Origin: a virus
Virus record (IMG/VR): IMGVR_UViG_3300030101_000096
Location: 4,524-30,325 of that record
Length of the DNA: 25,802 bases
Strand: one strand, 5' to 3'
Under the pieces are notes generated by a model. The model was not told the DNA's origin, did not search any database, and worked only from the letters and a program-made list of their open reading frames with translations. Of this stretch, positions 2,638-13,729 are shown in pieces. A program made the translations under genes and the position numbers. The number at the start of each line of letters is the position of its first letter. Position 1 is the stretch's first letter.

Positions 2638-2722
2638 ACCAATTAAAGATTGTCCAAAATGTATGAAGAGAGTTTATTGGTGTACATGTTGGAAAGTATT
2701 GAAAGGAAAATATTATGCCTAA
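2543..2722 (+). CDS. Overlapping 59-residue protein with a zinc-ribbon-like Cys cluster
   Basis: This reading frame is short and easily missed. ATG at 2543 is preceded by AAGGAAGTGGAG and the frame ends with TAA at 2720-2722. The N-terminal half is a charged helix (IAEDLKDFLKKHIVPLKK); the C-terminal half has Cys37, Cys40, Cys47 and Cys49 in the arrangement CPKC-x6-CTC, followed by WKVLKGKYYA. Four such Cys fit a small zinc ribbon. It overlaps the preceding gene out of frame by 95 bases and the next gene by eight, and it fills what would otherwise be the only empty gap (2638-2714) in the cassette. Function unknown; reality supported by ribosome-binding site, Cys spacing and tiling. Confidence 0.6.
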   Translation: MLGRGKSIAEDLKDFLKKHIVPLKKGEVIRGEPIKDCPKCMKRVYWCTCWKVLKGKYYA

Positions 2723-3014
2723 AGACGCTTGTTATCATAAAGTAAAAGCTAAATTTAAAGTTTTTCCATCCGCGTATGCCTCAGGGCATATAGCAAAATG
2801 CCGTAAGGTTGGCGCTGCTAACTATGGAAAAAGCAAAAAGAAAGCCATGGGTGGTGGACTAAATGCAGCTATAGAAAGAGTCAAAAATCAAACAATGACT
2901 GCCAAAGAAGGTAAAGTTGTTAAAATGACAAAAAGAAAGTCAAAAAATAAAAATATAGCTAGAGGTTGTGGTGCTATAATGGCAGGCAGAAGAAAAAAGA
3001 CAAAGTACGCATAA
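2715..3014 (+). CDS. Small, highly basic Cys-motif protein 3
   Basis: Ninety-nine residues with AGGAAA before the ATG. Two conserved blocks are visible: at the N-terminus KDACYHKVKAKFKVFPSAY then ASGHIAKCRKVGAANYG (residues 3-38, two Cys), and at the C-terminus ARGCGAIMAGRRKKTKYA (about 82-99). Between them is a Lys-rich linker. I recognise both blocks from marine phages and some large DNA viruses, sometimes as separate genes, so this could be a fusion of two small families. Strong positive charge suggests nucleic-acid contact. No enzyme motif is seen. It shares TAATG with the next gene. Confidence 0.65.
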   Translation: MPKDACYHKVKAKFKVFPSAYASGHIAKCRKVGAANYGKSKKKAMGGGLNAAIERVKNQTMTAKEGKVVKMTKRKSKNKNIARGCGAIMAGRRKKTKYA

Positions 3015-3292
3015 TGGCAGTTAGAAAGACAAAAGCTGGTCTTGCACTTAAGAGATGGTTCAAAGAAGATTGGAAAGATCAAAGAACTGGTAAAAAGTGT
3101 GGAAGACAAAAAGGAGAAAAAAGAGGCACACCTTATTGTAGACCAACAAAACGTATTTCTAGTAAAACACCAAAGACAGCATCAGAGATGACAGCGACTG
3201 AAAAACGTAGTAGAATATCACAGAAGAAAAGATTAGGTCAACCAGCAGGCGCACCTAAAAGAGTTAAAGCAGTAAGAAGAAAGAAGAAATAA
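3014..3292 (+). CDS. Small, highly basic KRWF-type protein
   Basis: Ninety-two residues from the ATG at 3014, chosen over an upstream in-frame ATG at 2966 because 3014 forms the usual TAATG junction and gives the expected N-terminus AVRKTKAGLALKRWFKEDW. Conserved points are LKRWFKEDWKDQRTGKKCG, a CRPTKRISSKTPKTASEM segment with a Cys at its start, and a Lys/Arg-rich tail (RVKAVRRKKK). This KRWF...CRP...SKTP pattern is a known small phage/viral family of unknown function. It closes the basic cassette and is followed without any gap by the first adaptor gene. Confidence 0.62.
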   Translation: MAVRKTKAGLALKRWFKEDWKDQRTGKKCGRQKGEKRGTPYCRPTKRISSKTPKTASEMTATEKRSRISQKKRLGQPAGAPKRVKAVRRKKK

Positions 3293-5118: not shown

Positions 5119-5568
5119 ATGGCAACATCAAATGCAGCAACCAATTATCTAGAGAGAAGACTATTACACTTTATTTTTAAAAATAACTCACTTAGTTTCT
5201 CATCGCCTGGTGATAGTATTTATGTAGGATTAGCCACAGCTGTTTCAGATGCAGAAGCCGCAACTGGATCAAGTGGATATACAGAAGCAACTTTTGGTTC
5301 TTATGCAAGACAACAAGTTACAGCATCGAACTGGACTACAATAGGAGCAGATTCAACAGATACTCAAACTGCAACAAATGCAGCTAACATAGAGTTTCCC
5401 GCCTCTACGGGGACATCTAATACAATAACACATGTTATCATAACAGATAACGCTTCAACTGGTGGTGGTAATGTACTGTTTATAGGGGCATTAGATGCAA
5501 GTAAAGCGATAGCGACTGGTGATATATTTAGAATTAATGCAGGTAACCTAACAATAGAGTTGAAGTAA
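5119..5568 (+). CDS. Tail-fibre-associated beta protein (gp80-like family)
   Basis: A 149-residue protein with AGGAG before the ATG. The order of elements, SNAATNYLERRLLHFIF, a strand with YVGLATA, FGSYARQQVTASNW, NIEFPASTG, ITHVIITDNASTGGGNVLF and finally IGALDASKAIATGDIFRIN then NLTIEL, is that of a family found in many phages next to tail-fibre genes (mycobacteriophage gp80-like in my memory). A trimeric or ring-forming adhesin base is a reasonable role. It is the first gene of the fibre locus and shares one base with the next gene. Confidence 0.65.
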   Translation: MATSNAATNYLERRLLHFIFKNNSLSFSSPGDSIYVGLATAVSDAEAATGSSGYTEATFGSYARQQVTASNWTTIGADSTDTQTATNAANIEFPASTGTSNTITHVIITDNASTGGGNVLFIGALDASKAIATGDIFRINAGNLTIELK

Positions 5569-6731
5569 TGGCGTTAGTAATAAACGACAGAGTAAAAGAA
5601 ACAACAACCACAACTGGTACTGGCACATTAAATTTAGCTGGTGCTGTAACTGGTTTTGAAACATTTGTTGCAGGAGTAGGTGATGGTAATACTACATACT
5701 ATGCAATCACATTGCCTGGCACAGCGGAGTTCGAAGTTGGTCTTGGTACTATTACTGATGCTAGTCCAGATACTTTAGCTAGAACTACAATAATAAGTAG
5801 CTCAAATAGTGATAGTGCAGTGAACTTTAGTGCAGGGACAAAAACTATTTTTTGTACACTACCAGCATCAAAGACAGTGTTTTTAGATGCAAGTGGGAAT
5901 ATAGTTGCAGCAAATGGTAGTAATTTAACTGCATTAAATGCCTCCAACCTATCAAGTGGCACTGTGCCAAATGCAAGATTAGACGCACAACTACAAGATG
6001 TTGCTGGATTAGCAGTAACAGATAGTGGCTTTATTGTAGGCGATGGATCTAATTTTGTTTTAGAAACTGGTGCAACAGTTAGAACATCTTTAGGGTTAGG
6101 CACATCTGCAACATTAGATACTGGTATTTCTAATACCAACGTAGCAAAATTCACATCTGGTGTTGCTGACAATGACTTTTTGCGTGTAGACGGAACATCA
6201 ATAGAGGGAAGATCAGCAAGTGAGGTGTTATCTGACATAGGTGGTCAAGCTAGTTTAACTTTTGGAATATCAAATACAAACGCAGTTAAGATAGACAGTT
6301 CAAGTGTTGCTGATGACGAGTTCGCTAGATTTACTGCTAATGGATTGGAAAGCAGAAGTACATCTGAAGTACTGTCCGACATAGGTGGTCAAGCGGCACT
6401 CACTTTTGGAATATCTGATACTAACATACCTATATTTACTAGTGGTGTAGCAGATGATGATTTTCTTAGAGTTGCAGGAACTTCTATTGAAGGTAGGTCA
6501 GCAAGTGAGGTGCTATCAGATATTGGTGGTCAGGCATCGTTAACCTTTGGCATAGCTAATACAAATGCTGTAAAGATAGATCATGCAAGTGTTGCTGATG
6601 ATGACTTTGCAAGATTTACAGCAAATGGATTAGAGGGTAGAAGTGCAGCAGAAACAAGAAGTGACATATCTGCAATAACATTAACAGAGGCATCAGATGA
6701 GGCAACGGCTTTAGCAATAGCGTTAGGATAA
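5568..6731 (+). CDS. Tail fibre protein with an alternating A-B-A-B shaft repeat
   Basis: A 387-residue fibre. The N-terminus (VINDRVKETTTTTGTGTLNL, then AGAVTGFETFVAGVGDGNTT and CTLPASKTVFLDASGN) is a common marine-phage fibre head that probably attaches to the tail. A linker (NASNLSSGTVPNARL) leads to about 190 residues made of four 47/48-residue units of two alternating types, each usually ending LSDIGGQA. The short C-terminus (EASDEATALAIALG) is weakly defined and no obvious receptor tip is present, so tip function may lie in neighbouring genes. ATG overlaps the preceding TAA (TAATG). The repeat is listed separately. Confidence 0.75.
   Translation: MALVINDRVKETTTTTGTGTLNLAGAVTGFETFVAGVGDGNTTYYAITLPGTAEFEVGLGTITDASPDTLARTTIISSSNSDSAVNFSAGTKTIFCTLPASKTVFLDASGNIVAANGSNLTALNASNLSSGTVPNARLDAQLQDVAGLAVTDSGFIVGDGSNFVLETGATVRTSLGLGTSATLDTGISNTNVAKFTSGVADNDFLRVDGTSIEGRSASEVLSDIGGQASLTFGISNTNAVKIDSSSVADDEFARFTANGLESRSTSEVLSDIGGQAALTFGISDTNIPIFTSGVADDDFLRVAGTSIEGRSASEVLSDIGGQASLTFGIANTNAVKIDHASVADDDFARFTANGLEGRSAAETRSDISAITLTEASDEATALAIALG
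6123..6692 (+). repeat. Four tandem fibre-shaft units of alternating types A-B-A-B
   Basis: Units begin at 6123 (A, 47 codons), 6264 (B, 48), 6408 (A, 47) and 6549 (B, about 48, with a diverged end). Type A carries FTSGVADxDFLRVxGTSIEG, type B carries SVADDxFARFTANGLExRS; the first three units end SEVLSDIGGQA and the fourth diverges to ETRSDISAI. The two A units agree at 35 of 37 residues from the FTSG threonine to the end of the unit, yet only 12 of those 37 codons are the same; thus the protein repeat is strong but the DNA repeat is weak. Confidence 0.9.
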
Positions 6732-7093: not shown

Positions 7094-7549
7094 ATGCCTT
7101 ATATCGGTAATCCTACAGTTGATAGATTTGTTACACCAAGAGCAGCTTCAGTTTTTTCTGGTGACGGATCAACAACTGCATTTACATTAGATGAAGCAGT
7201 TGGTACTGATGAAGATATTCTTGTATCTGTAGATGGCGTTATACAAGAGCCATCAGTCGCTTATGCAGTATCAAGTGGTACAACCTTAACATTCACTGCT
7301 GCACCATCTAGTAATTCTGGTAATAATATTTTTGTTTATTATCTTCATAGAACTATAGGCACAGTAACACCACCTCTTGAAATAAGTGGCACATACAAAG
7401 CCAGTGGTATATTTAGAACTAATGTGCAAACCCTATCAGATGATATTACAATAACTGCAACAGAAAATGCTAATGTTACAGGTCCGTTAACTGTAGCAAG
7501 TAATAAAACCATCACTGTTAATGATGGTGGAAGGCTAGTGATTTTATGA
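7094..7549 (+). CDS. Short tail-fibre anchor protein (MPYIG type)
   Basis: A 151-residue protein with GGAGA before the start. After PYIGNPTVDRFV it has a beta domain known from many marine fibres (ASVFSGDGSTTAFTLDEAVG, DEDILVSVDGVIQEPSVAYA, NIFVYYLHRT), followed by a small segment of shaft-like sequence (NVTGPLTVASNKTITVNDGG) and a stop. A full-length fibre would usually continue, so this gene looks like an anchor whose tip is supplied by the separately encoded proteins that follow. The gene at 10699 has a comparable MPYIG-type head. The last four bases (ATGA) overlap the next gene. Confidence 0.68.
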   Translation: MPYIGNPTVDRFVTPRAASVFSGDGSTTAFTLDEAVGTDEDILVSVDGVIQEPSVAYAVSSGTTLTFTAAPSSNSGNNIFVYYLHRTIGTVTPPLEISGTYKASGIFRTNVQTLSDDITITATENANVTGPLTVASNKTITVNDGGRLVIL

Positions 7550-10698: not shown

Positions 10699-11817
10699 AT
10701 GCCGTACATAGGAGTCAGCCCTTTTAATGGGGTCAGAAAAAAACATACATACACTGCCACGGCAAGTCAGACTAGTTTTAGTGGCGTTGGTGCAGAGGGT
10801 ATAACTTTAAGCTATAAAGATAGCACATTTGTTGATGTGTTTCAAAATGGCGTAAAGTTAGGTGAAGCAGATTATACGTCTACAAGTGGCACAGCTATTG
10901 TCTTAGCTCAAGGTGCATCATTAAATGATTTAATAGAAGTTGTTGTTTATGATGTGTTTAGTGTAGCAGATACTGTAAGTAAGGCAGATGGTGGTACGTT
11001 TGATGGTAATGTTACTATGGGCGGTACACTTGCAGTAACTAGTACGACAGCATTAACTGGAAATGCTACAATGGCAGGTACTCTTAATGTTACAGGTGAA
11101 ACTACTTTAGCTACACATCTTAATCTTGGTGATGGAGATATAATTAAACTTGGTGCTAGTGCAGATTTACAAATCCAACACGATGGTAGTGATTCTAAAA
11201 TTACTGATGGAGGCACTGGTAATCTAGTTCTAGACTCTGATGGCACAGAAGTGCGTATTATGAATGGTGCTGAATTTATGGGAAGATTTCAGAATAATGA
11301 TGCAGTAAAATTATTTTTTGACAATAGCAAAAAGTTTGAAACGACTTCTGCTGGTGCAACTGTTACTGGTTATTTACATCAAACTGCACCAGTCGTTTCA
11401 ATAATGTCGCATACAAGTCAAATAACTGTACCAGATAACTCTGTAACTGTCATACCTTTTCAAACAAGTGATGTTGACACACATAGTTTATATGATGCAA
11501 CAAATGACAGATTACTAATTACATCAGCATTTAATGGTCATTATTTTCAGATTACTTGGGCAGTAGCTGTAACTGGTGGAACAAATGGTGATAATATGTT
11601 TGGCTCTTTAAGAAAAAATGGCTCAGTAATACAAAATGATAATGTTTTTTTAACTGGAGATGAGGGCGAACAAATTACATTTCAAGGAACTTGGATTGGA
11701 ACTGTAGCAACTAATGACTACTTCGATTGTACTGCATTTTCAGATCAATCAAGTGGCACTAAAAATAGTTTACCTGGTTCAGCCAATAGTTTTTTAACAG
11801 CAATAAAAATATTTTAG
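10699..11817 (+). CDS. Tail fibre with a C1q-like C-terminal domain
   Basis: A 372-residue fibre. The head (PYIGVSPFNGVRKKHTYTAT, FVDVFQNGVKLGEADYTSTS, LNDLIEVVVYDVFSVADT) is a common anchor domain. The shaft contains typical alternating strands (FDGNVTMGGTLAVTSTTALT, GNATMAGTLNVTGETTLATH, IKLGASADLQIQHDGSDSKI, KKFETTSAGATVTG). Residues about 235-372 form a globular beta end (VTVIPFQTSDVDTHSLYDAT, ITSAFNGHYFQITWAVAV, GSLRKNGSVIQNDNVFLTGD, SFLTAIKIF) with the strand order of C1q/TNF-like trimeric tips. It is the most complete head-shaft-tip fibre of the locus and a strong adhesin candidate. Confidence 0.76.
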   Translation: MPYIGVSPFNGVRKKHTYTATASQTSFSGVGAEGITLSYKDSTFVDVFQNGVKLGEADYTSTSGTAIVLAQGASLNDLIEVVVYDVFSVADTVSKADGGTFDGNVTMGGTLAVTSTTALTGNATMAGTLNVTGETTLATHLNLGDGDIIKLGASADLQIQHDGSDSKITDGGTGNLVLDSDGTEVRIMNGAEFMGRFQNNDAVKLFFDNSKKFETTSAGATVTGYLHQTAPVVSIMSHTSQITVPDNSVTVIPFQTSDVDTHSLYDATNDRLLITSAFNGHYFQITWAVAVTGGTNGDNMFGSLRKNGSVIQNDNVFLTGDEGEQITFQGTWIGTVATNDYFDCTAFSDQSSGTKNSLPGSANSFLTAIKIF

Positions 11818-13014: not shown

Positions 13015-13247
13015 TGAGAAGTGGACAACCAATACTCGTAACAGATAACGAGGACAATAAACCAAGTATAACAATGCACAATTCAAAACTAACTCACATA
13101 ATTGCTCTTATGGATGAAGTTGAGTGTTTAAAAGGTGAGATACGACCAAGTGGCACTGGACATATTTATACTACAATTAGCACTTTAGAAAATAGAATAC
13201 AAAGACTAAGAAAAGAAGTAGAAAAAGAAAACGAGGATTATAATTGA
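13014..13247 (+). CDS. Small coiled-coil protein of the fibre locus
   Basis: A 77-residue protein with GAGGA 10 bases before the ATG. The first third is polar (RSGQPILVTDNEDNKPSITM); the rest is helical with two charged, heptad-like segments (SKLTHIIALMDEVECLKGEI; TISTLENRIQRLRKEVEKEN). There is one Cys. I do not recognise the family. A small coiled coil between fibre genes may be an oligomerisation or assembly factor. Its TGA overlaps the ATG of the next gene. Confidence 0.6.
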   Translation: MRSGQPILVTDNEDNKPSITMHNSKLTHIIALMDEVECLKGEIRPSGTGHIYTTISTLENRIQRLRKEVEKENEDYN

Positions 13248-13729
13248 TGTCTGGAGCCACTGCTTTTTGTGAAAACGCCATAGCTGAACAAGGAGTTCTG
13301 CAAGTTGGTGTAGCAGAAATGAGTGGCATTGCATCTAGTTCTAACGCAGGGGTGGGCATATTAGCAGGAGTTGCAGAGTTAAGTTTTAACAACACACAGA
13401 CAACTGCTGGAATATTTATTAGTGGTAGTGTAAATGCAGAGGTAAGTAGTAACTTTACCCAAACTACAGAAAACATACGCCTAGTGAATGAGGGACAAGC
13501 TGAAGTTAACAGTATTTTTACACAAACATCAACGGGTGCAGGAACTTTTGTTGGAACATCATCACAAGATTTGAATTTTACAAAAACTAGTTCTGGGGAT
13601 ATAATGTTTGTAGATGTTGTAACTGATGCTACAACAGAGACATATACAGAGATTACACCAAGTGGCACAGAGACATATACAGAGGTGACTCCTAGTGGCA
13701 CAGAGACATACACGGAAATAGTGAGGTAA
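13247..13729 (+). CDS. Repeat-rich tail protein with FTQT and ETYTE repeats
   Basis: A 160-residue protein. The ATG at 13247, overlapping the previous TGA, is chosen; a TTG one codon earlier is less likely. The N-terminal 45 residues (SGATAFCENAIAEQGVLQVG and following) are Ala/Gly-rich. Four degenerate units of about 20-25 residues follow, marked NTQTTAG, FTQTTEN, FTQTSTG and FTKTSSG, each preceded by AE or a related pair. The C-terminus is nearly three copies of an 11-residue unit TETYTE[I/V]TPSG. Such repeats are known in marine fibre genes and suggest an extended beta-type shaft or surface loop; function inferred. Three bases separate it from the next gene. Confidence 0.64.
   Translation: MSGATAFCENAIAEQGVLQVGVAEMSGIASSSNAGVGILAGVAELSFNNTQTTAGIFISGSVNAEVSSNFTQTTENIRLVNEGQAEVNSIFTQTSTGAGTFVGTSSQDLNFTKTSSGDIMFVDVVTDATTETYTEITPSGTETYTEVTPSGTETYTEIVR
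13634..13726 (+). repeat. Tandem 33-base repeat, two full copies and one partial
   Basis: Units start at 13634, 13667 and 13700 (27 bases). All start ACAGAGACATA and the full copies end AGTGGC; they encode TETYTE[I/V]TPSG. Unlike the alternating repeat at 6123, these copies remain similar in DNA, especially over the first 18 bases, so copy number might change by slippage or recombination without loss of frame. Confidence 0.88.

Follow-up and report, generated by a model that had tools for sequence, protein, structure and literature searches.

BACON-domain arrays in the tail proteins of crAss-like phages evolve by domain transfer and duplication (PMC6949934), and the fibres of marine pelagiphages and metaviromic islands carry variable repeat regions (PMC3909814). 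The viral DNA analysed here (25,802 nucleotides, hereafter the window) encodes, on its plus strand, a 387-residue fibre protein (5568..6731, delimited from the ORF list, homologues and an alignment) that can be compared with both. As in the BACON arrays, tandem domains lie in a tail-associated phage protein, the number of units depends on the lineage, and single domains appear to be transferred horizontally; the window unit differs, however, in being a 47-residue hairpin-helix of two related types, in a turnover that can be followed among arrays of over 90% identity, and in showing almost no recent duplication. The BACON domain itself (PF13004) was rejected as an identity for the unit, no such Pfam match being obtained with 49 unit pairs. 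With the fibres of PMC3909814 the window protein shares the plan of a marine phage fibre in which a conserved N-terminal domain precedes a stretch of repeats that varies from phage to phage. Those fibres are T7-like, with the T7 tail fibre N-terminal domain, and their repeats are protein-specific and without sequence similarity, whereas the window fibre has a different N-terminal domain and a unit family common to many phages and to several fibre gene families. The T7-like tail fibre domain (PF03906) has no match in the 387-residue protein and a weak, sub-threshold match in a separate ORF (7094-7549).

The N-terminal 115 residues of the fibre share 67% identity with Pelagibacter phage HTVC023P gp58 (MN698239), and the major capsid protein of the window is 70% identical to that of HTVC023P. 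In both proteins the window phage resembles the HTVC023P-type phages, which PMC9599517 describes as SAR11-infecting podoviruses. HTVC023P gp58 itself is 151 residues long and has no A/B units; the neighbouring ORF (5119-5568) has no match to HTVC023P gp57.

The fibre gene has the organisation of a modular fibre, a conserved N-terminal domain followed by tandem units and a conserved end, with a unit number that varies among relatives. The N-terminal domain (residues 1-115, 5568..5912) is common to isolated phages (HTVC023P gp58, roseophages) and is followed by a linker, one P module (LQDVAGLAVTDSGFIVGDGSNFVLETGATVRTSLGLGTSATLDT, 5988..6122), the four A/B units and a C-terminal tail (SDEATALAIALG, ending ATALAIALG, 6693..6731), which in the alignment is kept regardless of unit number. 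The units are A1 (6123..6263, 47 codons), B1 (6264..6407, 48 codons), A2 (6408..6548, 47 codons, of an IPIF...VAGTS sub-type) and B2 (6549..6692, 48 codons), the last with a degenerate C-terminal end that is already the C-terminal tail of the gene; all lie on the plus strand. A direct repeat of 61 nt marks the unit boundaries (6221..6281), with copies 77% identical at 6365-6425 and 6506-6566 and perfectly matching stretches of 14 and 17 nt; within it lie the short sequences GACATAGGTGGTCAAGC and ACTTTTGGAATATC, which recur exactly at the A1/B1 and B1/A2 boundaries. Inter-block sequences place the P module immediately before A in many relatives, and it is predicted to form a hairpin resembling the A/B units (strands 154-158 and 163-166 in a low-confidence full-length model). 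Its pattern, LQDVAGL..FIVGDGSNFV.E.GATARTSLGLGTAA.LDT, recurs between the A/B blocks of long fibres (L019, L034, L006), giving P-A-B(n) super-blocks.

No A/B unit was found in any other ORF of the window. The neighbours of the fibre gene match Gp80 fibre I (PF23140), the T7 tail fibre N-domain (weakly) and PHROG tail fibre families, and the gene therefore sits in a structural or tail region beside other fibre genes. ORFs 7094-7549 and 10699-11817 both begin MPYIG and match tail fibre families (the former weakly the T7-type N-domain), so that several fibre genes stand side by side. Between 7546 and 8821 there are three consecutive, apparently paralogous ORFs (7546, 7980, 8393) of 142-147 residues, with the N-termini VDTI, TDTI and FDTL and all ending in GDLA; they may encode small fibre or receptor-binding proteins arranged in tandem. 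The protein of ORF 13244-13729 ends in a short repeat of its own (TETYTEITPSG TETYTEVTPSG TETYTEIVR), and three small, very basic (Lys/Arg-rich) ORFs (1989-2273, 2715-3014 and 2966-3292) lie between the capsid and tail genes.

Units were found at 343 loci in five scans of viral contigs, and these loci reduce to 190 distinct arrays with a total of 688 units; all 190 arrays come from metagenome assemblies, in which perfectly identical copies of 141-144 nt could have collapsed. The units fall into two types, with the consensus GISNTNVPKFTSGVADDDFLRVDGTSIEGRSASEVLSDIGGQASLT for A and GISNTNAVKISSSVADDEYARFTANGLESRSTSEVLSDIGGQAALT for B over 46 matched columns (one inserted B residue omitted). A gene holds between 1 and 15 units, A is the first unit in 179 of 184 tandem runs, and the adjacency counts are 212 for AB, 136 for BB, 78 for BA and 13 for AA. 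The commonest orders are ABB (31 arrays), ABA (27), AB (18), ABBAB (15), ABBB (13), ABAB (9), ABBA (9) and AAB (6), and strict A-B alternation is thus one arrangement among many. No record of the collection of isolated (cultured) phages contains the units, a search of bacterial genomes produced two weak loci, and no Pfam or PHROG family describing the unit was found (Pfam being tested with the 49 unit pairs). A Pfam match to ASC over 20 residues and weak matches to Mur ligase, T7_gp14 and others were judged to be chance similarity of the GRSA.EVLSDIG segment.

The full-length monomer was modelled poorly by AlphaFold (pLDDT 53), and we therefore folded an A-B pair with 49 homologues. The pair model (pLDDT 83) predicts a hairpin-helix twice, with strands 19-23 and 26-30 and helix 32-40 in A, and strands 67-71 and 74-78 and helix 80-87 in B; the full-length model repeats this motif in each of the four units. 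The first-pass annotation had proposed a two-unit structural period of about 95 residues and had suggested prediction of the trimer structure to see whether A and B form distinct segments. Our monomer models give both types the same fold, and since that fold is shared the structural period would be one unit; the ABB, ABBB, AAB and ABBA orders of the relatives likewise do not fit a two-unit period. No solved structure matching the unit was found by sequence, and Foldseek against the PDB gave nothing significant. The top fold matches were the BFVD entries A0A516LQM0 and A0A516ML13, which are 87-88% identical over the A-B pair and are uncharacterised viral proteins with no name or function on record.

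At the DNA level the array is a direct repeat of 247 nt with 74% identity at a spacing of 285, which is not due to chance. The original description of the A pair proved exact: from TSG to the end of the unit, 35 of 37 residues are the same in A1 and A2, with 12 of 37 codons identical and 23 synonymous differences, among them CGT/AGA, AGT/TCG and TCT/AGT. The B units were said to behave similarly; the repeat is indeed present, but B1 and B2 agree at just 31 of 48 residues, and their 18 identical codons (with 13 synonymous differences) are slightly above random codon choice (15.6±2.7). For the A stretch, random draws from the phage's own codon usage give 15.8±2.8 identical codons against the 12 observed (P(<=obs)=0.12), and for the full A unit 18.7±3.0 against 14 (P=0.08). 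Because this low codon identity matches random codon choice, A1 and A2 look as if one protein had been encoded twice with codons chosen at random. The protein itself is under strong purifying selection, as the suggested dN/dS-type comparison between units indicates (A1-A2 pN 0.13 against pS 0.79). The codon scrambling thus appears to be ordinary saturation of synonymous sites in copies that parted long ago.

The units are indeed old or imported, as first supposed. A2 is identical at 46 of 46 residues, with a DNA identity of 79-82%, to units in the ABBAB and ABAB arrays of fibre genes that have a different N-terminus (L031, L053, L085, L133), and the nearest outside relatives of A1 are other units than those of A2. 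Since A2 matches units in another fibre gene family, A1 and A2 are separate old sub-types, whose presence in other genes may reflect either an ancient common origin or an older transfer.

Whole-unit change is visible among the closest relatives of the window fibre. The ABAB order is found in the window and in L002, L151, L153 and L248, and AAB in six relatives that lack B1 (L008, L253 and L256-L259), with junctions located at the A1/B1 and B1/A2 boundary repeats. In L256 exactly 144 nt are missing and the junction lies inside ACTTTTGGAATATC. L257 retains the B1-type tail GCTGCACTC (GCACTC), while the other five carry the A1-type tail GCTAGTTTA (AGTTTA), so there are at least two different B1-less junctions. 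The B1 remnant in L257 points to a loss; the other five could represent loss, or gains or transfers, and in a tree of the N-domain AAB and ABAB are interleaved with weak support. More widely, a comparison of arrays with flanking units of 90% identity or more gives 34 flanking-allele pairs that enclose alternative fillings, with a change of length in 26. These counts overlap, and not every one is a separate event. In 25 of 27 cases the extra allele is no more than 0.81 identical to any same-type unit of its own gene, the exception being the atypical array L273, and extra units are on this ground not recent in-gene duplicates; many have relatives at 0.93-1.00 in other arrays. Comparison of these sequences indicates that the arrays evolve by loss, exchange and import of whole units.

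Recent duplicates are scarce throughout. Two units clustering at 90% DNA identity occur together in one array of the 190 (L273), where random dealing of alleles predicts 4.4±1.9, and within-gene pairs above 0.89 identity are nearly absent; we regard the scarcity as suggestive, not strong. Most of the closest same-gene copies (0.87-0.91 DNA identity) belong to L272 and L273 (ABBBBBBABa and AaAAAA~a), which have atypical or near-tandem units. It is possible, if on balance doubtful, that fresh tandem duplicates do arise and are quickly deleted by recombination while diverged copies persist, a mechanical filter that would involve no selection on codons. The near-absence of same-gene pairs above 0.89 and the clean in-frame losses at unit boundaries are what such a filter would leave; however, losses occur also between units that are just 70-77% or so identical, and duplicates may simply be rare or have been collapsed by short-read assembly. 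We consider it unlikely that the last point is the whole explanation, with real duplicates hidden by short-read assemblers that mask a normal process of tandem duplication. The unit length of 141-144 nt is near that of a short read and the data are all metagenome contigs, but contig ends are no commoner inside the arrays than beside them (0.12 against 0.16 per kb), and copies 90-98% identical should be resolvable, yet are nearly missing too. Collapse of this kind would leave the codon-identity result unaffected.

The first-pass annotation had interpreted the scrambled codons as the product of selection against DNA identity, synonymous changes being favoured because they block the loss of units by recombination. 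Codon identity between A1 and A2 does fall short of the mean expected from codon usage (13-14 against 17.6-18.7, P 0.08), and the single array with units clustering at 90% identity could be read in the same direction. We nevertheless find this explanation very improbable. In 73 non-redundant genes, assessed with a position-specific null, an own-codon-usage null and a comparison of adjacent with non-adjacent pairs, codon identity at residue-identical sites within genes is 0.446 in A pairs (non-adjacent) and, in B pairs, 0.415 when the units are adjacent and 0.427 when they are not, whereas pairs from unrelated genes give 0.385 and 0.386 against a position-specific expectation of 0.385-0.39. There is thus no deficit of shared codons in same-gene pairs under any null, including each phage's own codon usage, but a slight excess. 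Median pS for A is 0.74 within genes and 0.79 between phages, and for B 0.81 and 0.84, respectively; by both measures the divergence of copies is no higher than that between random homologues, the very outcome that had been named beforehand as speaking against such selection. Genes of different phages are scrambled to the same degree at identical protein, where recombination within a gene is irrelevant. Nor does scrambling protect the array, as units are lost anyway and B1 is missing from six close relatives, among which there are two different junctions. Since synonymous sites are saturated and same-gene pairs share no fewer codons than unrelated pairs, saturation suffices and no special selection for codon divergence is needed. 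The further proposal that the unchanged 15-base block encoding SASEV (TCAGCAAGTGAGGTG), five identical codons in a row between A1 and A2, is a DNA or RNA site under constraint, or else a remnant of gene conversion, can be set aside with near certainty, as such a run has P=0.20 under random codon choice, the block is altered in both A units of the relative L256, and its columns resemble the rest of the unit (codon identity 0.40 within and 0.35 between genes) and are not unusually conserved between copies.

We therefore hold with considerable confidence that the array forms the modular shaft of a phage fibre, built from units of about 47 residues of two related types, A and B, with A1 and A2 belonging to old sub-types, a constrained protein, saturated synonymous sites and turnover of whole units, and that selection for codon divergence need not be invoked. 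Each unit would add one segment to a putative, probably trimeric, shaft between the N-domain, which presumably attaches to the virion, and the tip, and the number of units may set the length or spacing of the fibre. Units could be lost by recombination through the short 61-nt boundary repeats, and new ones may be imported from other phages during co-infection. A broader generalisation, which we offer tentatively and with more doubt than conviction, is that marine phages share interchangeable A/B shaft cassettes that move as whole units between fibre genes and between phages under an ordering rule (A first, A-A rare, IPIF...VAG-like sub-types later), that losing and importing cassettes tunes the length of the fibre, and that near-identical neighbours do not persist.

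For claims of the type "same protein, different codons", the comparison of same-gene pairs with pairs from unrelated phages provides a control. The A/B unit is an uncatalogued but widespread fibre repeat, with no Pfam or PHROG family and no representative in the cultured phage collection, and its evolution is of a known kind. Arrays that change by whole units between close relatives make it a usable system for the study of how phage fibres change in length.
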